A DNA stretch of 64,000 nucleotides from Deltaproteobacteria bacterium (GTDB taxonomy: Bacteria; Myxococcota; Myxococcia; Myxococcales; Anaeromyxobacteraceae), in contig JACRMN010000015.1 of NCBI GenBank assembly GCA_016214955.1, positions 1 through 64,000 on the forward strand, in the 5' to 3' direction. A model generated the notes under the pieces. It did no database searches. It saw only the letters and a list, made by a program, of their open reading frames with translations, and was not told the origin of the DNA. Position numbers and translations under genes: made by a program. This document shows positions 2,189 through 47,221 of the stretch, in pieces. Each line of letters starts with the position of its first letter. Position 1 is the stretch's first letter.

Positions 2189-5182
2189 GTGCACCTTCGT
2201 GCCCCGGAGCAGCGCAGCGTGAACGACCAGCCTGGCGAGAACGCGCCCGAGCGGAACGAGCCTGCGGCGGGCGAGACCCATAGCCGGGCGCAGGACGTCT
2301 CGGCGCAGCTCTCGGCCCTGCTCGAGGAGCTGGCGCGTGCGCCCGACGCCGACCTGGCCAGCGCGTGGCAGAAGGGGCTCTCGGCCGGGGACGAGGTGGG
2401 CCGCTTCCGGCTGATGCGGGAGCTGGGGCGCGGCGGCTTCGGCGTGGTCTACGAGGCGGTGGACCGGGAGCTGGAGCGGGCGGTGGCCTTCAAGGCGGTG
2501 CGGGCCGGCTCGCGCTTCGCCCACCTCTCGGAGGACTTCCTGCGCCGCGAGGCGGCGGCCGTGGGCCGGCTCAACCACCCCGGCATCGTCACCCTCCACG
2601 ACATCGGCCAGGGGCCCACCGGCCCGTACCTCATCTTCGAGCTCCTGCGCGGCCAGACGCTCACCGAGCGGCTCAAGCAGGGGGTGCTGCCGGCGCGGGA
2701 GGCCCTGCGGATCGCCACCGAGATCAGCCGCGCGCTGGTCCACGCCCACCGGCTCGGCGTGGTGCACCGCGACCTCAAGCCCTCCAACGTGTTCCTGGCC
2801 GAGGACGGCGCGGTCAAGGTGCTCGACTTCGGCCTGGCCTTCCTCTTCGGCAGGGGCGGTCCGGCCAGCGCCGGCACCCCGGCCTACATGGCGCCGGAGC
2901 AGTGGCGCAGCGAGCCGGGCGACGAGCGGGTCGATCTCTTCGCCCTCGGCTGCCTGCTCTACCAGATGATCTGCGGCAAGCTCCCCTACCAGGTGACGCT
3001 GCGGGGCAGCGAGGCGCTCTCGGCCGGCGCGCCGCCGGCCCTGGCGGCGCCGGCGGTGCCCTCGGCGCTGCGCAGGCTGGTGACTCGCTGCCTCGAACCC
3101 GATGCCGCCAGCCGCCCCGCCAACTCCGCCACGGTGCTGCGCGAGCTCGAGGCCATCGCCGCCCGCATCGACGGCCGCAAGCGGCGGGGGCTCCTCCTCG
3201 GCGGCGTGGCGGCCACGGCGCTGCTCTCCGCCGGCGCGGTCTGGCTCCACGACCAGCTGGCCACCAGCGAGGGGCCGCGGGTGACGGTGGCGGTGGCCGA
3301 CGTGGCCAACCAGACGGGGGAGCCGGCCCTCGACGGCCTCTCCGGCCTGCTCATCACCTCGCTCGAGCAATCGCGCCGGCTCCATGTGCTCTCGCGCCTG
3401 CGGATGATGGACCTGGCGCGCCAGGCCGGGCGGCGCGACCCCTCGCGCATCGACGAGGTGGTGGGCCAGGAGATCGCCCGGCAGGCGCAGGCCCGGGCGC
3501 TGCTGCTCGCCTCGGTGCACAAGTTCGAGAGCGTCTTCGCGCTGGAGCTGCGGGCCATCGCCCCCGGGGCCCAGGACTACCTCTTCACGCTGCAGGAGAA
3601 GGCCCGCGGCCTGGCGGAGATCCCGGCGGCCATCGACAGGCTTTCCGAGGGGGCGCGGCGGGCGCTGGCCGAGCGGCGCGGCGACGTGCGGCTCGCCTCG
3701 GTGAAGGTGGCCGACGCGGTGACCGGCAGCCTCGACGCCTACGGCCTCTACCACCAGGGCGTCGCCTGCGTGGAGCACTTCGACCTCGCGGGCGGCTGGT
3801 TCGCGGGCAGCAACTGCGTGCGCCACTTCCGCGCCGCGGTGGAGAGGGACCCGGGCTTCGCGCTCGCCTGGTACGAGCTGGCGGTGGCCTACGAGGACGG
3901 CGCCCCCGACGCGGAGGCGCGGCAGGCCATCGAGCGGGCGCTGGCCGCGCAGGACCGCGCCCCGCCGCGCGAGCAGGCGCTCATCCGCGCCCGCAAGGCC
4001 GAGATCGACGGCCACGCCGATCAGGCGCTGGCCATCTACCGCGAGGTCCTGGAGAGCTTCCCCGACGACAAGCGCACCCTGTTTCGTGCCGCGGCGCTGG
4101 AGATCCGCCGCGCCCGGTTCGCCGAGGCCGTTCCCTGGCTGGAGCGGGCCCTGTTCCTCGACCCCACCCACGAGCAGGCGCTCGACCAGCTGGTGCTCGC
4201 GCTGGGCGTGCTGGGGCGCAAGGAGGATCTGGCGGCGCGCGTGCGGCAGTGGGAGGCGGTGCCGCCGGTGCCGGCCGTCCGCCACGCCCTGGTGCGGGCC
4301 CGCTTCTGGCTCGGCGACCGGGAGGGTGCCATCCAGGCCGCGCGGGCCGCGGTGGAGGCGGGCAGCGGCCCCACCGCCGAGGACGACCTGGTGGGCGCGC
4401 TGCAGGGTGTGGGCGCTTACCGCGAGGTGGAGACCAACCTGCTGCGGCGGCGCGGCGAAGGGCCGCTCACCTTCTACCAGTCGCTCCAGCTCCTGGGCGC
4501 GGTGCTGGCCCAGGGGCGCGTCCGCGAGGCTCGCCGGCTGGAGGCCGACCTGGCGGCGGGGACCGAACGCATGGTCGTGGAGGGCATGCGGACCATGGTC
4601 CGGGCCTGGCTCGGCAGCCCGGGGGAGGCGCTCGCCGCCGCGGAGCGGATCGCCGACCTCCAGAGCACGGGCGCCACCTACGCTGCCTTCGCGGCATGGG
4701 CGGGCGAGCTCGACGGTGCGGAGCGGCTGGCCCAGCGGCTGCCGTCGGGCTCCGATACCCGCCTCAAGGTGGACGCCATCGTGGCCCTCCGGCGCGGGCG
4801 GCTGGCCGAGGCGCGCGCGCTGCTCGAAGGGCTGGAAGAGCGCGACCCCTACGGCCACGTCTCGCACCTCCTGCCCTCCTTCCTCCTGGCCGAGGTTGCC
4901 GCCGCGTCCGGCGACGCCGCGGCAACGAAGCGGTGGGTGGTGCGCTACCACGCAACCTGGCCGCGTGGCCTGTGGCGGAGCTGGGCGTGGCCGCGGAGCC
5001 TCTACCTCCTCGCCGAGGCGCACGAGCGGCTGGGGGAGCGGGCCGAGGCGCTCGCGACTGTCGACCGGCTGCTCGATCTCTGGAAGGATGCCGATGGGGG
5101 CGCGCCGCTGCTGGCCGAGTCACGGAAGCTGCGCGCGCGCCTCTTGCTTGGCCTGCCCGCAGGGAGGGACCGGAGACCATGA
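2189..5182 (+). CDS. Membrane-anchored serine/threonine protein kinase with TPR-like sensor region
   Basis: This eukaryotic-type (Hanks) kinase has all core motifs: the glycine loop GRGGFGVVYE at about 80-89, Lys102 in VAFKAV, HRDLKPSN at 193-200, DFG at 213-215 and APE in PAYMAPEQ. One membrane segment follows at about 334-353. The remaining 640 residues are Ala/Leu-rich helical repeats of TPR character, presumably outside the cytoplasm or at the membrane face. GTG 2189 gives 997 residues. The GTG at 2219 has a better-placed GGAGC and may be the real start. The stop overlaps the next ATG (ATGA, 5179-5182), so the kinase is probably translationally coupled to the Lys-rich protein and the ATP-grasp ligase downstream. 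Confidence 0.9.
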   Translation: MHLRAPEQRSVNDQPGENAPERNEPAAGETHSRAQDVSAQLSALLEELARAPDADLASAWQKGLSAGDEVGRFRLMRELGRGGFGVVYEAVDRELERAVAFKAVRAGSRFAHLSEDFLRREAAAVGRLNHPGIVTLHDIGQGPTGPYLIFELLRGQTLTERLKQGVLPAREALRIATEISRALVHAHRLGVVHRDLKPSNVFLAEDGAVKVLDFGLAFLFGRGGPASAGTPAYMAPEQWRSEPGDERVDLFALGCLLYQMICGKLPYQVTLRGSEALSAGAPPALAAPAVPSALRRLVTRCLEPDAASRPANSATVLRELEAIAARIDGRKRRGLLLGGVAATALLSAGAVWLHDQLATSEGPRVTVAVADVANQTGEPALDGLSGLLITSLEQSRRLHVLSRLRMMDLARQAGRRDPSRIDEVVGQEIARQAQARALLLASVHKFESVFALELRAIAPGAQDYLFTLQEKARGLAEIPAAIDRLSEGARRALAERRGDVRLASVKVADAVTGSLDAYGLYHQGVACVEHFDLAGGWFAGSNCVRHFRAAVERDPGFALAWYELAVAYEDGAPDAEARQAIERALAAQDRAPPREQALIRARKAEIDGHADQALAIYREVLESFPDDKRTLFRAAALEIRRARFAEAVPWLERALFLDPTHEQALDQLVLALGVLGRKEDLAARVRQWEAVPPVPAVRHALVRARFWLGDREGAIQAARAAVEAGSGPTAEDDLVGALQGVGAYREVETNLLRRRGEGPLTFYQSLQLLGAVLAQGRVREARRLEADLAAGTERMVVEGMRTMVRAWLGSPGEALAAAERIADLQSTGATYAAFAAWAGELDGAERLAQRLPSGSDTRLKVDAIVALRRGRLAEARALLEGLEERDPYGHVSHLLPSFLLAEVAAASGDAAATKRWVVRYHATWPRGLWRSWAWPRSLYLLAEAHERLGERAEALATVDRLLDLWKDADGGAPLLAESRKLRARLLLGLPAGRDRRP

Positions 5183-5424
5183 CCGAGAACACGATGAAGA
5201 ACCCCGACGCGGACGACCCCAGGGTGCTCGACGGCCCCTCGCTGTTCACGCCCGCCGCCCAGCCGGCCCCGAAGAGGGCGGCCCCGCGGAAGAAACCGGT
5301 CAAGAAGGCCGGCAAGAAGGTGGGGAAAAAGAAGGCAGCCGCGAGGAAGGCCGGCAAGAAGGCGGCCGCGAAGAAGACCGCGCGGCGGCCGGCGAAGAAG
5401 AAGCCGGCGCGGCTGCGCCGGTAG
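5179..5424 (+). CDS. Small Lys/Ala-rich basic protein (histone H1-like tail)
   Basis: This 81-residue protein has two halves. The first 30 or so residues are acidic and polar (TENTMKNPDADDPRVLDGPS, then LFTPAAQPAP). The last 50 hold about 18 lysines in KKA and GKK repeats, like bacterial histone H1-like proteins that bind DNA non-specifically. The ATG overlaps the kinase stop, and GGAGACC precedes it. It lies directly before a small ORF and an ATP-grasp ligase of the graspetide maturase family. It could therefore be a DNA-binding protein, a kinase substrate (Ser/Thr in the N-terminal half), or a modified peptide. The Lys-rich tail has no acidic residues, so it is not a typical graspetide core. 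Confidence 0.8.
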   Translation: MTENTMKNPDADDPRVLDGPSLFTPAAQPAPKRAAPRKKPVKKAGKKVGKKKAAARKAGKKAAAKKTARRPAKKKPARLRR

Positions 5425-5429
5425 CCGCC

Positions 5430-5702
5430 ATGGCCCGCGGGCGCTCCGGCCCGGTTCGCCGGCCTCGCCGGGGGGCGCTCCCGCCCGTTCCCTTCCTGCT
5501 GGCCACCGCCAGGCCGGCCGCCCCGGAAGCGCGCCAGGCCCTGGCCCGCCAGGCGCGGCTCCTGCGGCTGGCCGCAACCTGGCAGGCGCTGGCGCCGCTC
5601 GAGGAGGCGGCCTGGCGCGGTGGGCTCTCGGCCCGCGGCCTGGCGCGGCTGCAGCGGGCCAGGGTGGCCTACGCCCGGCTCGTCGCCGAGGTCGGCCGGT
5701 GA
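5430..5702 (+). CDS. Small Arg/Ala-rich protein of unknown function
   Basis: This 90-residue ORF begins 5 nt after the Lys-rich gene and ends in a GTGA overlap with the ATP-grasp gene (5699-5702), which argues that it is really translated. The N-terminus is very basic (ARGRSGPVRRPRRG), followed by PPVPFLLATARP and a Leu/Ala/Arg helical region. I do not recognise the family. Its place directly before a maturase-type ATP-grasp ligase makes it a possible substrate or partner, but it lacks an obvious Thr/Ser plus Asp/Glu core. No strong ribosome site precedes ATG 5430, so coupling to the upstream gene is likely. Confidence 0.6.
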   Translation: MARGRSGPVRRPRRGALPPVPFLLATARPAAPEARQALARQARLLRLAATWQALAPLEEAAWRGGLSARGLARLQRARVAYARLVAEVGR

Positions 5703-6637
5703 TCCTGCTGGTCTCGCACCGCGGCGACCCCCACCTCGGGCCCGTGCTGGCGGGGCTGCTGCGGCGCAGGCAGCGCACGGCGATCCTCGACACCGGCCGC
5801 TTCCCCACGCTGGGCCGCCTCGACCTCAGGCTTGGAGGCGCGGGGCTGGAGCGGCTCCGGGTGGCGGCGGGGCCGGGCACCTTCGAGGCCCGCGAGATCG
5901 CGGCGGTCTGGTGGTGGCGGCCCCTGCCCTGCGAGCCCGACCGCCGCATGCCCCTCGCCAGCCACCGCGAGGTGGCGAGGCTGGAAACGGCGGCGGCCCT
6001 GGGCGGCCTGCTGCGCTGCACCCGGGCACTGTGGGTGAACGAGCCGGCGGCGGCGCGCGAGGCCGAGCACAAGGTCTGGCAGCTCCGCCTGGCCCGGGAG
6101 TGCGGCCTGGCGGTGCCTCGCACCTGCGTCACCGGCCTCCCGGCCCAGGCGCGGGCCTTCCTGCGCGAGGTGGCGCCGGGGCGGGCGGTCTTCAAGGCGC
6201 TCGACGTCCGGCCCGAGACCTGGCGCGAGACCCGGCTGGTGGGCCCCGAGGAGCGCAGCCTCCTGCCGCTGCTCCGCCACGCGCCCGTGCTCTTCCAGGA
6301 GCACGTGCCCGGCGTCGACCTGCGGGTCACCTGCGTGGGCCGGCGGCTCTTCGCGGCCGAGATCGACGCGCGCCACACCTCCTCTCCGCACGACTACCGG
6401 CTGGCGCTGGGCCAGGCTCGGGTCCGGCCGGCCCGGCTACCGGCCGAGGTGCGGCGGGGGCTGCGAACGCTGCTCTCGCGGCTCGGGCTCCGCTACGGCG
6501 CGGTGGACCTGCGGCGCTCGGCGGACGGGGAGCACCTCTTCCTGGAGGTGAACCCCGCCGGCCAGTTCCACTTCGTGGAGCAGCGCACCGGCCAGCCCAT
6601 CGGCGAGGCGCTCTGCGACCTCCTGGCGAGCGGCTAG
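5699..6637 (+). CDS. MvdD-type ATP-grasp ligase (graspetide maturase family)
   Basis: The 312-residue protein opens with ILLVSHRGDPHL and LDTGRFPT, the N-terminal signature of the MvdC/MvdD ATP-grasp ribosomal-peptide ligases. It continues with VWWWRP, then the ATP-grasp core (KALDVRP, VLFQEHVPGVDLRVTCVG) and the Mg site in LEVNPAGQFHFVEQRTGQP. Family members use ATP to form ester or amide crosslinks between side chains of a precursor peptide. The start is GTG 5699 with GAGG 11 nt upstream, overlapping the previous stop. It closes the kinase operon and overlaps the converging FAD gene by 4 nt. The substrate is unknown; the two small upstream ORFs are candidates. Confidence 0.85.
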   Translation: MILLVSHRGDPHLGPVLAGLLRRRQRTAILDTGRFPTLGRLDLRLGGAGLERLRVAAGPGTFEAREIAAVWWWRPLPCEPDRRMPLASHREVARLETAAALGGLLRCTRALWVNEPAAAREAEHKVWQLRLARECGLAVPRTCVTGLPAQARAFLREVAPGRAVFKALDVRPETWRETRLVGPEERSLLPLLRHAPVLFQEHVPGVDLRVTCVGRRLFAAEIDARHTSSPHDYRLALGQARVRPARLPAEVRRGLRTLLSRLGLRYGAVDLRRSADGEHLFLEVNPAGQFHFVEQRTGQPIGEALCDLLASG

Positions 6638-11624: not shown

Positions 11625-13670
11625 TCAGGCGCGCGCCGCCGGCAAGGGCTGGGCCTGTGGGAGCGAGAAGGTGAAGGCCGACCCCTGGCCCGGGATCGAC
11701 TCGGCCCAGATGCGGCCGCCGTGGGCCTCCACCAGCAGCCGGGCGATGAAGAGACCGAGGCCCAGGCCGTCGCCGCTGCGCGTCGAGTGGCCGCGGTAGA
11801 AGCGCTCGAAGATGTGAGGCAGGTCCTCGGCGGCCACGCCGGTCCCCTGGTCGCGGACCGTCAGCAGCACCTCGCCGCCGATCGACGAGGCCCGCACCCG
11901 AACGTCGGCGCCCGCCGGCGAGTGGGAGAGGGCGTTGGCCAGCAGGTTGAGGAGCACGCGGTCGAGCCGCGTGGGGTCGGCCCAGCAGAGCGGCAGGTCG
12001 GCGGGAAGCTCCAGCTTCACGCGCGCCGGATCGACGGCGCCGCCCGCCACCGAGAGCAGGTTGGGCAGCCAGGCCCCGAGGTCGAGGGGCTGGCAGGAGA
12101 GCCGCAGCCGGCCGCTCTCCATGCGCACCGCGTCCACCAGGTCGCGGATCATCACGCTCATCTGGCGCGCCGCCGCCACCACCGCCGCCGAGGCGCGCTG
12201 CTCCTTCTCGCGCCCCTCGGCGCCGTCGGCCAGGCGCTGCAGCCGTTCGCCCTGCAGCAGGATGATCTGCAGCGGGTTGCGCAGGTCGTGGGAGACGGCG
12301 CGGAGCAGGTCCTCGAGCTGCGACTGCAGCTCCTGCAGCGCCGAGACGTCGGCCGCCGCCGCCACCGCCCCCGTGAGCTCCCCGTCGGCGCGGATGGGGG
12401 CGGCCGCCACCGAGATCCAGGTGGCCTTCTTCCCCGGCGGCTGGATCTCCACCACCTGGCCGCGCACCGTCTCGCCACGCAGGGCTCGCAGGACCGGGTG
12501 CTCCTCCTGCGCCAGCGGCTTCCCCTCGGTGGTGCGCGGCTTCAGCGTCCGCCAGCGCTCCAGCACCGAGCCGCCCTGCGGGTCGGCCCCGACGGCGAAG
12601 AGCTGCTGCGCCATGGCGTTCTGGCGGGTCACCTCGCCCTCGGCCGAGAGCACCACGATGGCCTCGGGCACGGCGGCGATGGCCGCCTCCAGCTCGGCCC
12701 GGCTCTTGGCCTCGCGCTCGGTGGTCTCGGCCAGCCGCCCGATGGTCTCGGCCAGCTCCCCCTCGATGCGTCCGCGGAGCTGCTCCAGGTAGGCGTTGGC
12801 GGCGGCCAGCTCCCGCGAGCTCTGGGCCACCTTGCGGTAGGGGTCGAGGATGGCGGCGGCGAAGAGGGTGTCGAAGATGAGGTAGCCGGAGACCGCGGCG
12901 TAGAGGTGGGCGGCGAGGCCCAGGAGATCGGCCTGGCCCTGCGAGAGACCGTAGGCCACCTGGCCGATGGCCACCATGCCCAGCGCCTGGGCGGTGCGCA
13001 GGTAGAGCGGCTCGCCGGTCTGGCGGAAGCGCTGGGTGTGGACGGCGATGCCGGCCACGCTGAGGAGCGCCAGGAACACCTCCAGCGCCGCCCGGCCGCG
13101 GGTGCCGCCGCCGTCGGGTCCGATGAAGGAGCCGGGGGTGACGAGGTGCGGCTCGGCCGCCAGCAGGATGCCCACCATCAGCACGCTCACGGCCGCCAGC
13201 GGCCCGCGGGACAGGAGCGGGTGGCTGGACGAGCGCGGCAGGAAGGCGGCGAGCAGGAGCGTCGCCGCCATCCAGCCCCGGGCCATGTGCCACCAGAAGA
13301 CGCCGTGCTCCCAGCTCGTGGCGCCAACGATCCCGGGCATGCCCGGCACGGCCAGCAGGTGCAGCGCCTCCAGCGCCGCCAGGCCCAGGCACGAGGCGCC
13401 GACGAAGCGGCCGCGCGGCTCCTCCAGGCCGCGCGAGGCGGCGTACCACTGGACGGCGAAGGTGGCGCCGCCCATCACCACCAGGAAGAGGAGTAGGAGC
13501 TCGTGCAGGGCCCAGAACAGCGCGTTGCCCAGCAGGCTCGGCGGCAGGAGCGCGACGAACAGGACCGGCAGCGACGCCATCGCCAGCCCCGCCAGGGCGT
13601 GACGGGCCTTCAGACGGCCGCGCGGACCGAGTCCGGCCGGGCCGGGTGCGCTCTCGTTCTCCGAAGCCAT
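11625..13670 (-). CDS. Membrane sensor histidine kinase with PAS domain
   Basis: The 681-residue protein has an N-terminal block of about eight membrane helices to roughly residue 260, like MASE-type sensory domains. A coiled-coil linker and one PAS domain (AIAAVPEAIVVLSAEGEV and on) follow, then a HisKA domain with His461 in AVSHDLRNPLQ. The HATPase_c domain carries NLLANALSHS, DQGTGVA and GDGLGLGLFIARLL. It should autophosphorylate and pass phosphate to a response regulator, but none is adjacent. It lies upstream of the type III PKS operon on the same strand, so it might sense envelope or lipid state; this is inference. Confidence 0.9.
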   Translation of the reverse strand: MASENESAPGPAGLGPRGRLKARHALAGLAMASLPVLFVALLPPSLLGNALFWALHELLLLFLVVMGGATFAVQWYAASRGLEEPRGRFVGASCLGLAALEALHLLAVPGMPGIVGATSWEHGVFWWHMARGWMAATLLLAAFLPRSSSHPLLSRGPLAAVSVLMVGILLAAEPHLVTPGSFIGPDGGGTRGRAALEVFLALLSVAGIAVHTQRFRQTGEPLYLRTAQALGMVAIGQVAYGLSQGQADLLGLAAHLYAAVSGYLIFDTLFAAAILDPYRKVAQSSRELAAANAYLEQLRGRIEGELAETIGRLAETTEREAKSRAELEAAIAAVPEAIVVLSAEGEVTRQNAMAQQLFAVGADPQGGSVLERWRTLKPRTTEGKPLAQEEHPVLRALRGETVRGQVVEIQPPGKKATWISVAAAPIRADGELTGAVAAAADVSALQELQSQLEDLLRAVSHDLRNPLQIILLQGERLQRLADGAEGREKEQRASAAVVAAARQMSVMIRDLVDAVRMESGRLRLSCQPLDLGAWLPNLLSVAGGAVDPARVKLELPADLPLCWADPTRLDRVLLNLLANALSHSPAGADVRVRASSIGGEVLLTVRDQGTGVAAEDLPHIFERFYRGHSTRSGDGLGLGLFIARLLVEAHGGRIWAESIPGQGSAFTFSLPQAQPLPAARA

Positions 13671-13831
13671 CCCCGCGGCTCCCCCTCGGCTGCGCAGGTG
13701 CCCCCAAGGAGTAGCACGCCGCCCCGGATGGGAGCGCGCCGGTTTGCCGCTGGGACAGGCGTGCAGGCGGAGGTCGGCACGGGCCCCGGCACCCCGCTTG
13801 CCAGGTCGGAACGCGGCCTTACGTTGTGTCC

Positions 13832-16453
<2,622 letters not shown>

Positions 16454-39388: not shown

Positions 39389-39464
39389 GCGGGAATAGCT
39401 CAGTTGGTAGAGCATCAGCTTCCCAAGCTGAGGGTCGCGGGTTCGAATCCCGTTTCCCGCTCCA
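39389..39464 (+). tRNA. tRNA-Gly (anticodon CCC)
   Basis: The complete cloverleaf is readable: acceptor GCGGGAA/TTCCCGC, D stem GCTC/GAGC, anticodon stem TCAGC/GCTGA around loop TTCCCAA (anticodon CCC, reads GGG), T stem GCGGG/CCCGT with TTCGAAT, and an encoded CCA end. The last 47 bases (39418-39464) recur downstream, marking this gene as an integration target. The truncated integrase gene ends inside it on the other strand. Confidence 0.97.
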
Positions 39465-40203
39465 ATCTCCGATGCACCCAACGCCCGGTGACCCCGGGCG
39501 TTTTCATTTCCGGGGCGCCGGTCGGCGCGGCGGCGGCGGCAGGGGCCTCACCCTCGCGCCCTACCAGCGCCCCATCGCCGCCCGCGATCAGGCGCAGGGC
39601 GTTGACCTCCCGAGCGTCAACCGGGGCGGTCGCCTGGGGCGGCATCAGCCGCAGCTTGTCCATCTCGGCGCGCATGAAGTCGGGGGCCAGGTGGCCATAG
39701 CGGTCCAGGGTGATCCGCACGTCGGCGTGGCCCAGGATGGTGCTCACGGCGACGATGGAGGCGCCCGCCTGCAGCAGCAGGCTGGCCGTCGTGTGACGCA
39801 GGTCGTGGAACCGGATGGGCCTGACCTGGGCCACCGGCCAGAGCTTGTCGCCGTGGACCGGGCAGCGGCGGAGCGCCCGGTCGGGGGCCTCCTCGACGTG
39901 GCCGCAGCGCGCCGCCGTCCGGTCCCGCCCGCCCGCCGGGTTGACCCGTGCCCGGCAGACGTGTCGGTAGCCCAGGACGATGCCCGCTCGCCCCAGGGCG
40001 CGTCGCAGGACGCCCGAGAAGTCGGTCTCCTGGCTCAGCATCCTCCCGTCTGGCCGGGGGAAGACAAGGGGTGACGGCGAGGCTCTACTGCGCTCGGTTC
40101 GCCCCTGGTGGCGCGGGGCGGGAGGCGGCCCCCGACCAGGAGGCGAACGCCTCTGATGATCGGCGGCAGGCCACCCGGGTTGCCCGACTGGCCGGGCTGC
40201 CAT
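39415..40203 (-). pseudogene. N-terminally truncated tyrosine recombinase (integrase) at tRNA-Gly
   Basis: The C-terminal catalytic half of a phage-type integrase is clear: FHDLRHTTASLLLQAG (boxes with His and Arg) and GHADVRITLDRYGHL with the nucleophile Tyr. The upstream part (PLVFPRPDGRMLSQETDFSG and on) is normal, but the arm-binding domain and the first catalytic Arg box are missing. Residues before about 43 read out of frame through a DUF5681-like fragment. A Cys/His cluster (about residues 77-110) forms a possible zinc ribbon insert. The C-terminus runs antisense into the tRNA 3' half (stop at 39415), typical of an element's left end. Probably inactive. Confidence 0.8.
39481..39509 (+). 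terminator. Intrinsic terminator after tRNA-Gly
   Basis: ACGCCCGG and CCGGGCGT form an 8-bp stem with loop TGACC (39481-39501), followed by TTTCATTT. It differs from the terminators after the second and fourth tRNA-end repeats, consistent with this flank having arrived with the first inserted element. Confidence 0.75.
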
Positions 40204-40247
40204 CGAGTGGCCTGCCCTGCGGTGTTGCCCTTCTGGAACCTTGGCAT
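40035..40247 (-). pseudogene. DUF5681-like N-terminal fragment
   Basis: ATG 40247, preceded by GAGGAGCAGG, opens with MPRFQKGNTAGQATRWQPGQ and SGNPGGLP, the DUF5681 signature often seen near phage terminase or replication genes. After about 35 residues the similarity ends, and the frame runs over the truncated integrase. I read this as a deletion that joined two genes and removed both the body of this one and the start of the integrase. Confidence 0.55.
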
Positions 40248-40304
40248 CGCCTGCTCCTCGCCTGCTCTCAGGCGCGCTGGATGAGCCTCTGGTAGGTTGG
40301 CCTT

Positions 40305-40604
40305 GTGAAGCCGACCGGCCGTGACGCGGCGTGGAGACCCCGCCACCTTCTGCCCGGCAGCGCTTGGCTCGGCGCTGCCGCGGCCGGGGCCCTGGTCTTC
40401 TGGCTCTCCAGGAAGTTCGGAGCCGACCCCATCTGGCCGACAGCCGCCTCCTTCACTGCCACTGTCGTCCTCGTCCCGCTCGTCGGCATGTGGAGGCTGC
40501 TGGGGCCAGGCGCGCGGTTGGCAGTCGGGGCCGGGTGCGTGGCGGCGCTGTCGGGACTCGTCACCTGGATCCTCCTTCTGGCGGGGCGAGTGGCATCACT
40601 CTGA
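40305..40604 (+). CDS. Small membrane protein of unknown function
   Basis: This 99-residue protein has a basic N-terminus and about three hydrophobic helices (roughly 20-38, 47-62, 70-93: LLGPGARLAVGAGCVAAL, SGLVTWILLLAG). GTG 40305 has a GGTAGGTTGG region upstream. It overlaps the 3' end of the convergent excisionase-like gene by 44 nt. It lies inside the first integrated segment. I do not recognise the family. Confidence 0.5.
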   Translation: MKPTGRDAAWRPRHLLPGSAWLGAAAAGALVFWLSRKFGADPIWPTAASFTATVVLVPLVGMWRLLGPGARLAVGAGCVAALSGLVTWILLLAGRVASL

Positions 40605-40749
40605 TCGCGTTGCCCACGCGCAGATGCGGCAGGCGCCCCTCCTCGCAGAGCCTGTAGACGGTCGCGGTGGAGACACCCAGGAGCTCCGCGACGGCGCGAA
40701 CGCTGAGTAGCCGACCCCTCTCCCCTCCTACTGCGCGCAGCCGCCCCAC
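40561..40749 (-). CDS. Excisionase-like helix-turn-helix protein
   Basis: The C-terminal 45 residues (LLSVRAVAELLGVSTATVYR, then LCEEGRLPHLRVGNAIRV) form a MerR/HTH_17 winged helix typical of phage excisionases and recombination directionality factors. I place the start at GTG 40749 (62 residues), the usual size. A longer frame extends to a TTG inside the tRNA repeat and is unlikely. It lies in the same segment as the truncated integrase and could still direct excision if an integrase acts in trans. Confidence 0.7.
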   Translation of the reverse strand: MGRLRAVGGERGRLLSVRAVAELLGVSTATVYRLCEEGRLPHLRVGNAIRVMPLAPPEGGSR

Positions 40750-40896
40750 GGCCGCCCTATGGCCCTTGGCAGCCGCTGCGCTGTCTGCGAACGGCTGGAC
40801 GCACTGGCGGGAGAGCGGGCCGCTGGCACCCTCGACGTCGCGGCTGCTTGCGAGGGCCTGGGGACCGTTGCCAACCCCTGGATCGGACTCGGGGCC

Positions 40897-40943
40897 GCTT
40901 CCCAAGCTGAGGGTCGCGGGTTCGAATCCCGTTTCCCGCTCCA
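40897..40943 (+). repeat. tRNA-Gly 3'-end repeat, copy 2 (att site)
   Basis: These 47 bp are identical to bases 39418-39464 of the tRNA gene, from the anticodon arm to CCA. With copy 1 they bound a 1.4-kb segment carrying the truncated integrase, which is the structure left by site-specific integration at a tRNA gene (attL and attR). Upstream sequence ends CTCGGGGCCG, also seen before copy 4. Confidence 0.92.
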
Positions 40944-40949
40944 GACTCT

Positions 40950-40990
40950 CCGAGGGGTTCCGTCATCCGCCGGGACCCCTCGGGCGTTTC
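40950..40990 (+). terminator. Terminator-like hairpin after tRNA-end copy 2
   Basis: CCGAGGGGT (40950-40958) and ACCCCTCGG (40975-40983) form a 9-bp stem, followed by GCGTTTCTGG. The same block, with two or three changes, follows copy 4 at 45356-45399. TTGTCCG follows at 41006-41012. Confidence 0.65.
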
Positions 40991-41163
40991 TGGGGGTGCA
41001 AAGTGTTGTCCGTAATCGTTGGCCGTGGTCGCCCGGCGCGGAGAATCACCCGTCCCGCCTCGGGTTTCGCCTCGCAGACCATCAGCCTTCCCGCCTGATG
41101 CTCTCCAAGCCCGCGCCGTGAACCATGGTTGACACCCTCGGCGCGCCGCCCTAGGTTCAGCTC

Positions 41164-41454
41164 ATGTGGACGGTCCTCACCACCGAGGCCTTCGACACCT
41201 GGTTCTCCGCGCTGCGGGACCGGAGGGCCGCCCGCCGCATCCAGGCGCGCATCGACCGCGCCGAGGCCGGGAACTTGGGCGACTGCGCCCCGGTCGGCGA
41301 GGGCGTCTCGGAGATGCGGATCCACCACGGGCCCGGCTACCGGGTCTACTTCATCCAGCGCGGCCTGGAGGTCATCGTCCTGCTCGGCGGCGGTGACAAG
41401 GCCACGCAGGCCAAGGACATCGCGAGTGCGCTCGCGCTGGCGAGGCAGCTGTAG
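41164..41454 (+). CDS. HigB/RelE-like toxin
   Basis: The 96-residue protein fits the RelE/ParE-superfamily HigB type: TEAFDTWFSALRDRRAARRI, RIDRAEAGNLGDCAPVGEG, SEMRIHHGPGYRVYFIQRG and VIVLLGGGDKATQAKDI are the conserved segments of a ribosome-dependent mRNA interferase. It is followed 8 nt later by its antitoxin (toxin-first order, as in higBA). It lies in an integrase-less segment between tRNA-end copies 2 and 3, so it may stabilise that segment. Confidence 0.88.
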   Translation: MWTVLTTEAFDTWFSALRDRRAARRIQARIDRAEAGNLGDCAPVGEGVSEMRIHHGPGYRVYFIQRGLEVIVLLGGGDKATQAKDIASALALARQL

Positions 41455-41462
41455 GAGGCACC

Positions 41463-41777
41463 ATGGCGTCAAAGGGAAAGACGAAGCTGAAGCTCAAGAG
41501 GTGGGACTCCGCGGAGCACCTCGAGACCGAGGAGGACATCGCCCTCTACTGGGAGGCCTGCCTCGAGGAGGCGGCCGAGGATCCGGCCTTCATCACCGCC
41601 GCCCTCGCCACCATCGCCAAGGCCCGCGGCATGACGGCCCTGGCCCGCGAGACCGGCCTCACGCGCGAGGGGCTCTACAAGGCCCTCTCGCCCGACGGGA
41701 ACCCGGAGTTCGCAACAGTGATGAAGGTCATCCGCGCGCTCGGGCTTCACCTCCACGGCTCTGCGGCGCAGGGCTGA
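41463..41777 (+). CDS. HigA-like antitoxin
   Basis: The 104-residue protein has an acidic dimer/toxin-binding region (LETEEDIALYWEACLEEA) and a helix-turn-helix (MTALARETGLTREGLYKALS, followed by DGNPEFATVMKVIRALG). This form pairs with HigB-type toxins and autoregulates the operon. GTAGGAGGCACC precedes the ATG. Confidence 0.88.
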   Translation: MASKGKTKLKLKRWDSAEHLETEEDIALYWEACLEEAAEDPAFITAALATIAKARGMTALARETGLTREGLYKALSPDGNPEFATVMKVIRALGLHLHGSAAQG

Positions 41778-41785
41778 CCCATTCC

Positions 41786-42690
41786 ATGGCCCACCATCAC
41801 CCCAAGGGTCTCGCGGCCATCGACCCCCTGGCGGCCCCGCTACCCCACGGGACGGAGGTCACGACACGCGTGGAGCGCCAGCTCGGTGACCGGCGCATCC
41901 CGCAGGGCGTGGTGGGCCGCGTGGTCACCATCCGGGACGACGGCTTCGACGTCCTCGTGACCGGAGTCGGGGTCGTGCCCTATTCGCGCGAAGAACTCCT
42001 CCCCCGACGTCCGGGCCAGGTTCGCTTCGCCGAGCAGCGGGCCTCGAACTGGGAGGCGCTGCGGCCCTGCGTCGTGCTGGAGGCCACCGTCGGCTCGCGC
42101 GCCTGGGGACTCGCCGACGAGGGCTCCGACACCGACCTGCGCGGCGTCTTCGTCCTACCCTTCCCCTGGACCGTCGGCCTGCTCGAGCAGGCGCAGACAC
42201 TAACAAGCGCCTCGAGCGGGTCCTGTCGCGCTTCATCATGCGCACCTCGCCAGACCACGCCGCCCTCCGCGAGCTCGTCGGCCACAGCCTGTCGCGCAAG
42301 CTGCACCGCCACTACCGCGGCTTCGCCACGGGCCAGCTCCGGGAGTGGGAGAAGGACGGATTCCGCTCAGCGAAGAAGCTCCTCTACGTGCTTCGCACGA
42401 CGCTCACGGGTACGCACGCCCTCCTCACCGGGGCCCTCGAGACCGACGTCACCCTCCTGCTCGACGAGCATGGTTTCTCGGCGGCGCGCGAGTTGGTAGA
42501 GGCCAAGCGCCGAGGCGAGCGCTCCGAGCTGCCCGCGGAGGTCGCCGAACGCTGGCGGAAGGAAGTGGGCCGCGCCTTCGACGTCCTGGATGGTGCGCTG
42601 GCCCGCTCCACGCTCCCCGAGGTACCTCCTAACGTCCGCGAGATCGAGGCTTGGCTCCTCGAGCTCAGACGGCGGTCGTTCTCGAGGTGA
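41786..42690 (+). pseudogene. Broken DNA polymerase beta-superfamily nucleotidyltransferase
   Basis: The first frame (ATG 41786) gives an N-terminal barrel-like part, then the nucleotidyltransferase motif EATVGSRAWGLADEGSDTD followed by LRGVFVLP with its two Asp. It runs out of homology at about 42195. A different frame picks up as NKRLERVLSRFIMRTSP and continues to 42690 with a helical C-terminal region. The total of about 300 residues is shorter than I expect for this COG3541-like family, so an internal deletion with a frame change is likely. It starts 8 nt after the antitoxin gene. Confidence 0.65.
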
Positions 42691-42703
42691 GAGGGCCGGG
42701 CCA

Positions 42704-42727
42704 GACAACAATCAGACAATGATCTGC
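42704..42727 (+). repeat. Conserved right-end element of the second segment
   Basis: The 24-bp block GACAACAATC-A-GACAATGATCTGC recurs at 45193-45216 with one change. Both copies end exactly 89 bp before the start of the next tRNA-end repeat (42816 and 45305), and the sequence between also matches (TGGAACGCCC, GTGATTCCGC, ATCTGGCCTGAT). Direct GACAA units suggest binding sites of an integrase or excision factor. Confidence 0.75.
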
Positions 42728-42815
42728 TGCTGGAACGCCCCTCGACGACCCTGAACCGCTGCAACGCCCCGCGTGATTCCGCGGATCTGGCCTGATCCCG
42801 CGGCGGGGGCACCTT

Positions 42816-42860
42816 TTCCCAAGCTGAGGGTCGCCGGTTCGAATCCGGTTTCCCGCTCCA
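42816..42860 (+). repeat. tRNA-Gly 3'-end repeat, copy 3, with compensatory T-stem change
   Basis: These 45 bp match the tRNA 3' half except at two positions, where the T stem reads GCCGG/CCGGT instead of GCGGG/CCCGT. The two changes restore a base pair (G51-C63 to C51-G63). That is expected only if this end once completed a working tRNA, as when an incoming element replaces the 3' half. It bounds the toxin-antitoxin and serine-hydrolase segments. Confidence 0.9.
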
Positions 42861-43233
42861 GATTCGGCAGGATTGGCGAGGCCTTCCAGGGCGACCTGGG
42901 GGGCCTTCGTCGTTTCTGTGGAACGCCAGACGTTGTCAGAGGTGGTTGTCCGGACTTCGTCGGCCCTCCGAATCGACGGAGGTGCCACTGGATTCTCCCT
43001 GCCGACCATCAGCTTTCTACGCTGGGGCCTCAACACTCAGGTCGCCTTGATGAGCCATACCGAGCGTGACGGTGTTTGCTCCGATCGCGCCACCTACAGC
43101 ATCGCCTGTCCCCGTAAGTCACCTGTACTGGACTCGAAATCGGGATCGGTCTTCCCATCCCCCATTGCGCGGTCGGAAGGCGACCACCTCGCGGCTAGAC
43201 TCTGGCGCTCCACCTCCGGCCCAGGAGCCCTAC
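42861..43233. other. Left end of the third segment, no gene seen
   Basis: This stretch follows tRNA-end copy 3 and has no supported gene. It holds TTGTCAG (42933-42939) and TTGTCCG (42946-42952), and GACCATCAG (43004-43012), which recurs at 41077-41085 in the second segment's left end. A lower-GC stretch precedes the serine hydrolase gene and probably holds its promoter; AGGAG lies 8 nt before its GTG. Confidence 0.5.
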
Positions 43234-45066
43234 GTGTCCCGTCTCCCCTTCGCGCCCTGCGCCCTCGCCGCGCTCCTGGCCTGCGCCCCCTCGCGCCCTG
43301 CCCTCCGGCCCGCCGCCCCCGGCCCGGAGCTCTCCCGCGGGCAGCGGCTGGCCGCTGCCGCCGAGGCCCTGACCCCCGAGCTGACCGCCCTGGTGGAGAA
43401 GACCCGCGCCCCCGGCGTGGTGCTGGGCCTGGTGGTCGACGGTGAGCTCGTGTGGGTGAAGGGCTGGGGCGCGCGGGAGGTAGCCTCGGGCGCGCCGGTG
43501 ACCCCGGACACCGTCTTCCGCATCGCCTCCATGACGAAGGCCTTCACCGCCGACGCGGTGCTCAAGCTCCGGGACGAGGGGAGGCTGGCCCTCGACGCCC
43601 CGTTGGAGACCTACCTGCCGGAGCTGACCGGCATGAGCGGGCCCACCCGCGACGCGCCGCGCCCTACGCTCCGGCTGCTCCTCTCCCACTCCGCCGGCCT
43701 ACCCGAGGACAACGCCTGCGGGGATCTGCGCCTCCCGATGCCCGAGGCCGAGCTCGACGCGGTGCTGCGTCGGGGGCTGAGCTTCTCCACCACACCTGGC
43801 ACCGAGTTCGAGTATGCCAACCTCGGCTTCGCTCTGGCCGGGCGGGTTGTGAGCCGGGTCACCGGACAGAGCGCCCAGCAGTACATCTCCCGGCAGCTCC
43901 TCCAGCCGCTGGGGATGAGCTCCACCGTCTGGGACGTGGGCCAGGTCCCGTCGGAGCGGCGGGCCCACGGGTACGGCCGGCGCGACTCCCCCATGCCCTC
44001 CTCCGGCCTGGCCCACTTCGAGGACGACCTCCCCCACGAGGAGCTGACCCTGGAAGACGGCAGCTGGGCCCCCATGGGCGGCCTGTGGACGTCGCCCCGG
44101 GACTACGCTCGCTGGGTCGCCTATCAGCTCGACGCCTGGCCCCCGCGCGACGACCCCGAGGCCGGCCCGGTACGCCGGGCCTCGGTGCGCGAGGCCCAGC
44201 AGGTGCAGCGCTTCATCGGCTTCACCGCCTCCACCAGGGAGGGCGCGCTGAAAGCCCAGTCCGTCGGCTACGGCTTTGGCTGGGCGGCGAGCCAGAGTTG
44301 CACCTTCGGCCAGGTGGTCACCCACACCGGTGGGCTCCCCGGCTACGGCTCCCACGTCCGGCTGCTGCCCAACGCGCGGGTGGGCGCCTTCGCGATGACC
44401 AACCTCACCTACCAGGGCGCCAATGGGGTGGTGGTGGCGCTCCTCGAAGGACTGGCCCGCCAGGCGCTACTCGACCCGCCGCGGCTCCCGCCCACGCCGG
44501 CCCTGACCGACTCCGCGCAGCGCGTCCTCGAACTCCTCTCCAGGTGGGACCCGGCGGCCCTGGAGGCCGCGGTGGACCACACCTACCTCGTGTACCAGCC
44601 CCTGGATCGGGTCCAGGCGCGCCTGGCCAGCCTCAGCGCTCAGCTTGGCCAGTGCGGGGCGCCCCGGCGCTGGACGGTCGAGAACCGGCTCCGCGGAGAC
44701 GCCGTCGTCCACTGCGAGCGCGGGACCCTGGCCATGCACCTCGAGCTGACCCATGAAGTGCCCACCCGCCTCCAGGCCCTGGACCTCGTGGTCCGGCCCA
44801 CGCTGGTGCCGGCGACGCGCACCATGGTCGAGGCCCTGCTGTCCGGCGCGAAGGAAGGGACGGCGGTTGGGCGGCTCCAGGCTCGGCGCGGCCCGTGTCG
44901 GGTGGAGGAGGCCTGGGCCTCGGAGGACGGGAAGGCGCTCTCCGCTCACCTGGCCTGCGCCCGGGGCACCGCCGAGCTCACGGTGGGTCTGGAAGGCGCT
45001 GGGGGGACGCCGAAGCGCGTGGAGGTGGAGGAACCCGACGGTGGCCGCTGCCTGGAGGGACGCTAG
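43234..45066 (+). CDS. Lipoprotein serine hydrolase of the beta-lactamase (class C / penicillin-binding) family
   Basis: The 610-residue protein begins with a lipoprotein signal (CALAALLAC, Cys17). The beta-lactamase fold shows the SxxK motif SMTK at 99-102, the YxN motif in EYANLGFALAG, and HTGG in VVTHTGGLPGYG. A C-terminal domain of about 170 residues follows. Family members are D-aminopeptidases, esterases or carboxypeptidases more often than true beta-lactamases. GTG 43234 has AGGAG at the right distance. It is the only gene of the third tRNA-bounded segment, so it was probably acquired with it. Confidence 0.88.
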   Translation: MSRLPFAPCALAALLACAPSRPALRPAAPGPELSRGQRLAAAAEALTPELTALVEKTRAPGVVLGLVVDGELVWVKGWGAREVASGAPVTPDTVFRIASMTKAFTADAVLKLRDEGRLALDAPLETYLPELTGMSGPTRDAPRPTLRLLLSHSAGLPEDNACGDLRLPMPEAELDAVLRRGLSFSTTPGTEFEYANLGFALAGRVVSRVTGQSAQQYISRQLLQPLGMSSTVWDVGQVPSERRAHGYGRRDSPMPSSGLAHFEDDLPHEELTLEDGSWAPMGGLWTSPRDYARWVAYQLDAWPPRDDPEAGPVRRASVREAQQVQRFIGFTASTREGALKAQSVGYGFGWAASQSCTFGQVVTHTGGLPGYGSHVRLLPNARVGAFAMTNLTYQGANGVVVALLEGLARQALLDPPRLPPTPALTDSAQRVLELLSRWDPAALEAAVDHTYLVYQPLDRVQARLASLSAQLGQCGAPRRWTVENRLRGDAVVHCERGTLAMHLELTHEVPTRLQALDLVVRPTLVPATRTMVEALLSGAKEGTAVGRLQARRGPCRVEEAWASEDGKALSAHLACARGTAELTVGLEGAGGTPKRVEVEEPDGGRCLEGR

Positions 45067-45192
45067 AAGGCATCCAGAGCCCTCGCGTTGCCGCGTCGCC
45101 CCTCACGGTGCCGGCAGGTCGAAGTGAGCATGATCCGGCTCGGTAGCCAGCAAGTGAAGGCTCGTTGGACCGCGTCCTGAGCGCGCTCCGCG

Positions 45193-45216
45193 GACAACAA
45201 TCGGACAATGATCTGC
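45193..45216 (+). repeat. Conserved right-end element of the third segment
   Basis: GACAACAATC-G-GACAATGATCTGC repeats the block at 42704-42727 with one mismatch, again ending 89 bp before a tRNA-end repeat. The reverse complement contains TTGTCCGATTGTTGTCC, similar to TTGTCCG motifs at the left ends. This marks the serine-hydrolase segment and the toxin-antitoxin segment as related elements. Confidence 0.75.
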
Positions 45217-45304
45217 CGTCGGAACGCCCTTCAACGTCCCTGATCCATCTCAACGCTCCTCGTGATTCCGCTTATCTGGCCTGATCTCGGGGCCGGGGCA
45301 CCGT

Positions 45305-45349
45305 TTCCCAAGCTGAGGGTCGCGGGTTCGAATCCCGTTTCCCGCTCCA
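45305..45349 (+). repeat. tRNA-Gly 3'-end repeat, copy 4 (att site)
   Basis: These 45 bp are identical to the tRNA 3' end. It is the distal copy of the array. The flank that follows contains a terminator hairpin and TTGTCCG at 45413-45419 (64 bp after the repeat; 63 bp for copy 2). It could be the original chromosomal tRNA flank or the left end of another element. Confidence 0.92.
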
Positions 45350-45355
45350 GACTCT

Positions 45356-45399
45356 CCGAGGGGTTCCGTCATCCGGCGGGACCCCTCGGGCGTTTCTGG
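45356..45399 (+). terminator. Terminator-like hairpin after tRNA-end copy 4
   Basis: CCGAGGGGT (45356-45364) and ACCCCTCGG (45381-45389) pair over 9 bp and lead into GCGTTTCTGGGG. It is nearly identical to the hairpin after copy 2. The remaining sequence to 45548 holds no gene that I can support. Confidence 0.6.
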
Positions 45400-45548
45400 G
45401 GCCGGCAAGAGGTTGTCCGCAGGCCGCGGCCTCCATCTCCCCCACCTGACCCTGCTCGCCTCGCCCGCCCTGGCCTCGCCTGACCGGCCCGGGCGCGCGG
45501 CGCGGCCTTGCGGGCTCCTCACCGCCGGCGCAGACTCGGCGCTCGTCC

Positions 45549-46673
45549 ATGCCGGATTCCACCGATCTCTACCGACGCCTCCGGGCCCACCTCGACGAGA
45601 TGCCGGTGCCCTTCCCGGCCACCGAATCCGGGGTTGAGCTCCGGCTCCTCGCCCGGCTCTACTCGCCGGAGGAGGCGGAGGCGGCCCTCCTCCTGAGCGC
45701 GGTCCCCGAGCCGGCGGCCCGCATCGCCGCCCGGGCCCCCGGCGCTGATCCCGCGGCGCTCGCGGTGCGGCTCGACGCCATGGCGGAGAAGGGGCTCCTC
45801 CTGCGCTCCGGCCGGCCCGACCGCCGCCGCTACGGCAAGGCGCCACTCGCGGTCGGCATCTACGAGATGCAGGTCGACCGGCTCACCCGCGAGGTCCAGG
45901 ACGACTTCGAGGCCTACGGGCAGGAGGCCTTCAAGGGCGCCTTCCTCGGCGGGCGCACCGGCCAGATGCGCACGGTGCCGGTGAACGCCACCTTCGTGCC
46001 CGAGCGGGCGGTGGGGCGCTACGACGACGCCCGTGCCCTCCTCGCCGCGAGCCCGGGACCGTTCGCCATCCAGAACTGCGTCTGCCGGCAGGGGCGCGAC
46101 CTGCAGGCCCACCCCTGCTCCGTCACCAGCGAGCGGCGGGTCTGCCTCGGCATCGGGCACGTGGCGAAGTCGCTCGTCCGGAGCGGCCACGGACAGCCGG
46201 TGGAGCGCGACGAGGTCATGCGGCTCCTCGACACCGCCGAGCAGGACGGGCTCGTGCTGCAGCCCTCCAACACCCGCGACCCGGTCTTCATGTGCTTCTG
46301 CTGCGGCTGCTGCTGCGGCGTGCTCCGGATGGCCAAGGCGCTGCCGCGACCGGCCGAGGCGGTCACCACCAACTACCGGGCTGCGGTGGACGGCTCCAGC
46401 TGCGCCGGCTGCGGCGCCTGCGTGCCGCGCTGCCCGATGGACGCCCTCGACGACTCGGGCGACGCCACGGCGGTGCTCGCCGATCGCTGCATCGGCTGCG
46501 GCGTCTGCGTCCCGGCTTGCCCCACCGGAGCGCTCTCGCTCGCGGTGAAGCCGCGGCCGGCGGTCCCGCCCCGCTCTCTCGGCACCCTGTACGGCCGGCT
46601 CACGGTGGAGCGGTTCGGCTGGCTCGGGACGGCCAGGCGGCTCGGCAAGGCCCTGCTCGGCCGACGGGTGTAG
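45549..46673 (+). CDS. 4Fe-4S dicluster ferredoxin-type protein
   Basis: The 374-residue protein has an N-terminal region of about 110 residues like a winged helix (VRLDAMAEKGLLLRSGRP), a Cys-rich middle (QNCVCRQGRDL, HPCSVTSERRVCLG, FMCFCCGCCCGVL), and two ferredoxin motifs near the C-terminus (CAGCGACVPRCPMDA and CIGCGVCVPACPTGA). It is predicted to be a cytoplasmic electron-transfer or sensory Fe-S protein. The nine-cysteine stretch around 240-260 could hold an additional cluster. No partner oxidoreductase is adjacent. It lies just beyond the tRNA-repeat array. Confidence 0.85.
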   Translation: MPDSTDLYRRLRAHLDEMPVPFPATESGVELRLLARLYSPEEAEAALLLSAVPEPAARIAARAPGADPAALAVRLDAMAEKGLLLRSGRPDRRRYGKAPLAVGIYEMQVDRLTREVQDDFEAYGQEAFKGAFLGGRTGQMRTVPVNATFVPERAVGRYDDARALLAASPGPFAIQNCVCRQGRDLQAHPCSVTSERRVCLGIGHVAKSLVRSGHGQPVERDEVMRLLDTAEQDGLVLQPSNTRDPVFMCFCCGCCCGVLRMAKALPRPAEAVTTNYRAAVDGSSCAGCGACVPRCPMDALDDSGDATAVLADRCIGCGVCVPACPTGALSLAVKPRPAVPPRSLGTLYGRLTVERFGWLGTARRLGKALLGRRV

Positions 46674-46786
46674 CGAGGCGCCGTTCACGTTCTCCATGCG
46701 CGCCAGCTCCTCGGCGCGGGACGCACGGCGGCCCGGATCGCGCGCGGGTGACCGCGCCCGGGCCTCCGGCGTATCGTCGGCGCATC

Positions 46787-47221
46787 GTGAGCATCCGCCC
46801 CGAGGATCCCTGCCCCTGTGGCGGCGCCACCTACGGCGTCTGCTGCGGCCCGCGCCACGACGGCTCCCGCCCCGCCGAGACCGCGGAGGCGCTCATGCGC
46901 TCGCGCTACTCGGCCTTCGCGCTCTGCCTCCCCGACTACCTGCAGGCCACGCACGACGCCCCGGCCACCGAGCAGGGCCGGCGCGAGCTCGCCGCTGCCG
47001 CGACGGCCGTCACCTGGCTGGGCCTCACGGTGCACGGCACCGAGCGCGGCGGCCCGGACGACGAGGAGGGCTTCGTGGAGTTCACCGCCCGCTCCCGGGA
47101 CGGGCGGCATGCCTACGCGCTCCACGAGCGGTCCCGCTTCCGGCGCGTGTCGGGCCGGTGGCTCTACGTCGACGGGGAGTGCCGCCTGGAGCGCACCCTT
47201 GCCGGCGGCCGCGCCCGCTGA
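46787..47221 (+). CDS. YchJ-family (UPF0225) protein with SEC-C motif
   Basis: The 144-residue protein begins with a SEC-C zinc motif (DPCPCGGATYGVCCGP), followed by MRSRYSAFAL, VEFTAR and FRRVSGRWLYVDG. This is the YchJ family, with an NTF2-like fold after the SEC-C motif and no settled function. GTG 46787 is the natural start. Confidence 0.88.
   Translation: MSIRPEDPCPCGGATYGVCCGPRHDGSRPAETAEALMRSRYSAFALCLPDYLQATHDAPATEQGRRELAAAATAVTWLGLTVHGTERGGPDDEEGFVEFTARSRDGRHAYALHERSRFRRVSGRWLYVDGECRLERTLAGGRAR

Follow-up and report, generated by a model that had tools for sequence, protein, structure and literature searches.

What assembled the row of short segments that follows a tRNA-Gly gene in a member of the Anaeromyxobacteraceae (Myxococcales), and how could these segments move when two of the three carry no integrase? 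The window analysed here is a 64,000-nt stretch of contig JACRMN010000015.1 (genome G000), for which the initial annotation had proposed a family of non-autonomous, tRNA-targeted cassettes moved by an integrase encoded elsewhere. We compared the locus across 24 genomes of the same family and 145 genomes of the same order, and unit ends were taken from 15 tRNA-Gly units in 12 genomes of that order.

Copies of the tRNA-Gly 3' end delimit three units at an integration hotspot

The intact target gene, tRNA-Gly(CCC), lies at 39389..39464 on the forward strand (ARAGORN). The three repeats of its 3' part that had been noticed downstream were confirmed, each comprising 45 nt on the same strand, at 40899..40943 (copy 1), 42816..42860 (copy 2) and 45305..45349 (copy 3, the last), with 0, 2 and 0 mismatches, respectively. 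Measured from core to core, they delimit units of 1.5 kb (unit 1), 1.9 kb (unit 2) and 2.5 kb (unit 3). Each copy starts exactly at TTCCCAA, the predicted 7-bp overlap, which is the anticodon loop of the tRNA (39420-39426), and ends at the tRNA 3' end, which fits the att class that Islander lists as "anticodon-centred" (PMC4383910). Copy 1 has the T-arm allele of the host gene, and its surroundings are 98% identical to those of copy 3 over 101 nt. The two mismatches of copy 2 amount to a paired T-arm change, from GCGGG..CCCG to GCCGG..CCGG, an allele also found in G014, G006, G011 and G017. The T-arm allele tracks the type of left end and not the right end, as expected if the crossover falls in the anticodon loop, and the CCGG allele of copy 2 thus travels with its left end. 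As proof of import from another genus this allele is weakened, since G001, from the window's own genus, has CCGG too.

Throughout the genomes compared, the tRNA-Gly(CCC) locus is an integration hotspot: upstream gene order is kept across the family, and the genomes diverge downstream of the tRNA. A single old, never-varying block had to be considered for the stack; relatives differ by presence and absence, so it is not such a block. In the intact elements at the hotspot (G006, G009, G040 and others) the integrase gene directly follows the tRNA on the opposite strand and reads its last ~19 codons from the tRNA itself. The cargo circulates at this hotspot, where HigBA, RlaP and SEC-C genes are met again in other genera.

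The broken integrase and the excisionase-like gene first reported for unit 1 were both borne out. The tyrosine integrase gene (39415..40203, reverse strand) matches PF00589 at positions 125-169 only, the last part of the domain; its product lacks the N-terminal ~250 aa, is 60% identical by tblastn to residues 249-466 of the 521-aa integrase of G015, and has a C-terminus encoded by the tRNA antisense strand. At the right end lies a gene for an excisionase-type HTH protein (40561..40905, reverse strand; PF12728 (HTH_17), TIGR01764), homologues of which occupy the right ends of other units. Because a truncated integrase is combined here with an excisionase-type HTH protein, and no recognisable arms were found in the unit, unit 1 is a relic, an autonomous element that has decayed.

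Units 2 and 3 share their right ends and differ in cargo

Unit 2 opens with a terminator-like hairpin (left-end type LB, 40950..40983) that recurs after copy 3 and whose region is ~86% identical to sequence 3' of tRNA-Gly in G003, G005, G013, G021 and G023. A left arm pair, GTTGTCCG-N5-GTTGGCCG, follows at 41005..41025 (+62/+75 after the core). The cargo, all on the forward strand, consists of a HigB/HI1419-type toxin (41164..41454; TIGR02683, above its cut-off), a HigA/HI1420-type antitoxin (41463..41777; PF21716, TIGR02684) and an RlaP-family nucleotidyltransferase pseudogene (41786..42690) in which PF10127 falls into two pieces. The HigBA-like DNA is 79% identical to positions 2116-2700 of L050 in G011, at the same hotspot. 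RlaP is 75% identical to a longer copy in G009, placed directly after the last att copy there, and lacks ~1,007 bp of that homologue, its halves joining near 42211/42212 (blastn to L057 15068-15484 and 16492-16902). The right arm pair, a 24-mer with a period of 11, lies at 42704..42727 (forward strand).

Unit 3 begins with a terminator-like hairpin of another type, LC (42878..42908). The first 99 nt of this end, core included, are 97% identical to the end downstream of tRNA-Gly in G014, which is the left end of the unit found there (see below), and 122 nt are 90% identical to G017. Its left arm pair, GTTGTCAG-N5-GTTGTCCG, lies at 42932..42952 (+72/+85 after the core); the same two positions are used in G006, and +72 in G014 and G017. 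The cargo is a serine hydrolase of the beta-lactamase class C/AmpH fold, a probable lipoprotein (43234..45066, forward strand; PF00144, with NF007943 below cut-off), and the right arm pair is again the 24-mer (45193..45216, forward strand). Of the cargo originally assigned to the two units, the toxin-antitoxin pair and the serine hydrolase stand, and the nucleotidyltransferase is a pseudogene with ~1 kb missing.

The two 24-mers (42704 and 45193), of which 0 are expected in shuffles, both start exactly 112 nt before a core. A shared element of 24 bp at a fixed distance before the repeat had been seen from the outset, and the similarity proves longer than that: the right-end blocks 42704-42865 and 45193-45354 align over 162 nt without gaps at 86% identity, core included, and occur at a single place in their own genome. 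TTGTCCG was likewise found after every repeat, at 41005, 42945 and 45412, the positions of GTTGTCCG after the three copies.

Putative integrase arm sites flank the cores

Arm-type sites of tyrosine integrases, such as those of lambda, L5 and Tn916, are paired direct repeats at a fixed distance on each side of the core. Units 2 and 3 are a separate "GGACAA" arm type. Their 24-mer, composed of GGACAACAATC/GGACAATGATC with period 11 and located at ~-113, is best explained as a putative tandem pair of 11-bp integrase arm sites, GGACAAC/GGACAAT, and TTGTCCG, across the core and in inverted orientation, is the predicted partner arm. Where the TTGTCCG arms are paired, they have a period of 13, at +62/+75 or +72/+85. 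With at most one mismatch, GTTGTCCG lies between +62 and +85 in six left ends, of which the window has three and G014, G017 and G006 one each (genera g1 and g5); ~30 other left ends checked are without it. For the GGACAA tandem pairs taken singly, shuffle p values range from 0.04 to 0.07 at right ends and are no stronger than 0.1 at left ends; over three units, the arms vary at 2/24 sites, compared with 31/88 in the adjacent spacer (Fisher p=0.007).

In the other units, tandem pairs of ~11-bp repeats (GTAGCAA, GCAGCAA, GTCCACAA, GCGTCAGT or GCCGGAA) are usual at both ends. Most non-GGACAA units at the hotspot have matching tandem pairs, with the integrase adjoining the tRNA when intact; the motif varies from unit to unit, and an exact 9-mer is common to left and right arms in nine of 12 such units. 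Before the core, most units have their pair at -134 to -138, the GGACAA pair thus being ~22 nt, or two helical turns, nearer to it; after the core, the pairs are mostly at +65 to +72. An order-wide pattern search in which a wide range of spacings was allowed gave right ends of exactly 145 nt in 8/10 cases. Right ends of 145 nt or nearly so (arm to TTCCCAAGCT) were also observed in four genomes of genus g26, family f4 (L123-L132), and since these belong to the same order and match ~145 nt, the arm geometry is order-wide. The arm rule extends past tRNA-Gly(CCC): within G000, integrases at tRNA-Asp (L119), tRNA-Pro (L120) and tRNA-Gly(GCC) (L118) are accompanied by tandem ~11-bp pairs, a different one at each site, some 45-90 nt beyond the tRNA. 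Tandem arm-like pairs were also seen after tRNA-Gly in G021 (L087, CGGACAAG x2), G003 (L074, TGGGCAACC x2) and G023 (L089, TGGGCAAGG x2), where, with neither an integrase nor a second att copy, they are probable relic left ends.

A third GGACAA unit in another genus

A third GGACAA unit is located on contig JAJXSQ010000061.1 of G014, the MAG "Myxococcales bacterium isolate BP4.bin12", which represents another genus. It occupies the same chromosomal tRNA-Gly, with the same molybdopterin-oxidoreductase gene adjoining, and its cargo is a single long AAA/DUF4143 ATPase gene (PADLOC candidate PDC-S01). The 24-mer, with one mismatch, lies 3 bp past the ATPase stop codon, and the core is exactly 112 nt from its start; the same spacing is therefore combined with three different cargoes in units 2, 3 and G014. 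Among the 145 order genomes, the GGACAA right end is present only in G000 (two copies) and G014 (one copy), which limits the type to three complete units in two genomes. Four other matches in ~85,000 species genomes cover the 24-mer only, the rest of the right end being unmatched. As anatomy, a non-autonomous cassette family is supported: the fixed-ended, tRNA-targeted family proposed at the beginning has gained a member with other cargo in another genus, and the part of that proposal that placed its integrase elsewhere found no counterpart in our searches.

Search for an integrase with matching arms

By tblastn, no integrase remnant beyond the codons inside the core was detected in unit 2, unit 3 or the G014 unit, and an integrase stands beside none of the six GGACAA-type left ends. 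GGACAA arms accompany none of the 15 Phage_integrase matches in G000, a genome that is 95.6% complete. As own-genome helpers, the same-subfamily integrases at tRNA-Asp and tRNA-Pro were rejected, each having its own, other arm motif, and so was the integrase at tRNA-Gly(GCC), which likewise has another motif and where the TTGTCC nearby stands alone, a short way from the integrase gene. Searches of the 145 order genomes with the 24-mer and with arm-pair patterns returned no arm-matched full-length integrase either, so this expectation of the initial annotation is not borne out by the genome itself or by those of the order. No integrase adjoins the 24-mer in ~85,000 species genomes or viral contigs. 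A wider search for an autonomous GGACAA element (order genomes, ~85,000 species genomes, viral contigs, plasmids by blastn) produced real cases in G000 and G014 only.

Origin of the stack

The reading we favour, although we rate its chances as about even, is that tyrosine-integrase elements were acquired independently of one another and stacked at the anticodon loop of tRNA-Gly(CCC), units 2 and 3 being non-autonomous GGACAA cassettes with the integrase supplied in trans. A cassette of this kind would have a left end of ~90 nt (tRNA 3' part, terminator hairpin and inverted GTTGTCCG arm pair at ~+62 to +85) and, after between one and three genes of cargo, a 112-nt right end in which the GGACAAC/GGACAAT arm pair and a spacer precede the next core; the left-end hairpin would replace the terminator displaced from the tRNA. 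An integrase from another element would bind both arm pairs and cut the cassette out between two cores, and the cassette would be reinserted at the tRNA, which would be restored every time. Each entry by crossover in the anticodon loop would bring in a new tRNA 3' half, hairpin and left arms, and older elements would shift outward. Judging from arm conservation, units 2, 3 and the G014 unit must at some time have been substrates of an integrase that binds GGACAA arms, and we infer that movement was by an integrase in trans. Within each of the types LB and LC, the left ends have diverged nearly as much as the genomes in general, which gives no hint of very recent movement. More tentatively, the units might belong to a dedicated integrase-less tRNA-Gly cassette family of myxobacteria that swaps cargo and depends for its movement on an integrase acting in trans and never carried along; such a family would be characterised by ~90-nt left and 112-nt right ends with inverted paired arms, and by cargo comprising a toxin-antitoxin, a hydrolase, an ATPase/defence candidate and possibly SEC-C/Fer4.

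It is conceivable, although we would not call it probable, that the units are relics of the CIME type, once autonomous and deprived of their integrase by deletion after integration, in a fossil stack that moves occasionally with a neighbour. Decay is common at this hotspot, because unit 1, units 1 and 2 of G045, and G035 keep only C-terminal integrase fragments, and the pseudogene state of RlaP in unit 2, the negative arm-matched search in G000 and the 145 order genomes, and the established nature of CIMEs and of accretion (PMC5704250) are all in keeping with a fossil. Deletion sits less easily with three units in two genera that have no integrase trace yet keep both arm pairs, with arms better conserved than the spacer, with similarity that starts at the 24-mer, in two units out of three within 3-14 bp of the stop codon of the cargo gene, and with GGACAA-type left ends that in all six cases are without an adjoining integrase.

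Homologous exchange, in which RecA-dependent crossover or natural transformation at the 45-nt cores or similar ends would swap cargo with no site-specific recombinase, is improbable: however well it suits the 98% identity around copies 1 and 3 (101 nt) and the recurrence of HigBA, RlaP and SEC-C in other genera, 45-nt repeats are short for efficient recombination of that kind, conserved arms at fixed spacing are not what it predicts, and the core begins exactly at the anticodon loop. An assembly artefact or chance repeats, for which the draft state of the genomes is the sole argument, can be set aside almost entirely, as unique sequence separates the repeats on a 260-kb contig, 0 repeats are expected by chance, and G014, an independent assembly, has the same architecture and refutes an artefact.

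Relation to known elements

Among known kinds, CIMEs (cis-mobilizable elements) come nearest, together with those Dehalococcoides ssrA islands that lack an integration module. CIMEs, described for Streptococcus ICE/IME, are att-flanked, have no integrase or transfer genes and are stacked at one site (PMC5704250). Units 2 and 3 are alike in being att-flanked, free of integrase and transfer genes and accreted beside other elements; their cores and both arm pairs would represent attL and attR, and they hold no remnant of an integrase or transfer gene, with no autonomous relative in the genomes searched. They differ from CIMEs in their size of 1.9-2.5 kb, their few cargo genes and the retention of both arm pairs, and in that three units with different cargo have one end type, for which no related autonomous element was found. 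At Dehalococcoides ssrA, tandem islands are similarly bounded by RNA-gene 3' repeats, and 15 without an integration module were suggested to be cis-mobilizable (PMC3146451), but the recombinase there is a serine recombinase, the target is a tmRNA gene, and no arm pairs are described for the integrase-less islands.

The suggestion that units of this sort are under-described holds in part. Integrase-less att-flanked stacks as such are known from CIMEs and Dehalococcoides ssrA; Islander, however, requires an integrase gene and a length of 2-200 kb (PMC4383910), so very small integrase-less cassettes are dropped from surveys of this kind. At our locus, a tRNA gene and its displaced 3' fragment do flank the units, units 2 and 3 have no integrase and unit 1 a fragment of one, and only unit 3 exceeds 2 kb.

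Other systems are more distant. Myxococcus phage Mx8 has attP inside int (PMC6070905), and Mx9 Int is the best phage match, at 30% identity; as in Mx8/Mx9, a tyrosine integrase gene spans the att site, with a C-terminus that here comes from the tRNA antisense strand, but our units contain no phage genes and units 2 and 3 no int. The GIsul2 integrase has been demonstrated to move an integrase-less CR2-sul2 unit via shared att cores (PMC9376610); integrase and site are different, and the helper is identified there. CALIN arrays and MITEs are also cargo or ends without a recombinase, thought to be moved in trans (PMC11389934), whereas here we find no attC hairpins, no transposon terminal inverted repeats and one fixed tRNA target. 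Judged from their ends, which are duplicated tRNA 3' sequence and tandem arm pairs, the units are not integron cassettes or CALINs; a single fixed target, coding cargo and occurrence at one place only in their own genome separate them from MITEs, and the cargo-only content of units 2, 3 and G014 from tycheposons and phage satellites.

What appears to be new is the very small, cargo-only format, with one end type, exact geometry and three cargoes in two genera, together with the inverted arm orientation and an arm-pair rule that ties cassettes to possible helpers. This rule (two ~11-bp repeats ~135 nt before and ~70 nt after the core, in an element-specific motif) provides a search signature independent of the integrase and a way to pair cassettes with helper elements; for the GGACAA right end, the signature is a 112-nt profile (24-mer and spacer) followed by TTCCCAAGCTGAGGG. 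If moved in trans, the cassettes would offer a simple, testable vehicle for some of the turnover of single genes at tRNA hotspots (toxin-antitoxin pairs, defence candidates), and a dedicated trans-moved family, if real, would parallel CALINs and MITEs among tyrosine-integrase islands.

Accessory genes beyond the last repeat and short units in other genomes

Copy 3 is followed by an LB-type left end (45350..45419) and, because this end keeps a GTTGTCCG arm (45412-45419), it is probably the relic left end of an older unit. No right end or further att copy was found beyond copy 3 within the window. The two genes that come next are also accessory, which adds to the picture given by the earlier annotation, and they may represent the cargo of an older unit, the fourth, that has lost its right end. 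The first encodes an Fe-S (Fer4) protein (45549..46673, forward strand), with matches at E<=1e-40 in only 2/23 other family genomes and at most 43% identity. The second, encoding a YchJ/SEC-C protein (46754..47221, forward strand), occurs among the 24 family genomes only in G000 and G006, in the latter also after the last att copy. The two SEC-C genes are 88% identical in DNA over 467 nt, whereas upstream of the tRNA three genomes of G006's genus show 77-78% DNA identity.

Short units were observed in two further genomes. In G047 (L061, ~5052-6119), an integrase-free unit of 0.95 kb at tRNA-Gly contains only two small ORFs, one BrnT-like (76 aa, no Pfam match) and the other for a CopG/BrnA-like antitoxin (weak PF12441); its right end bears a GTAGCAA arm pair. 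In G045 (L051), a 4.9-kb unit at tRNA-Gly is followed in the stack by one of 1.5 kb (13021-14514), which encodes a C-terminal fragment of an integrase and a PIN-domain toxin.
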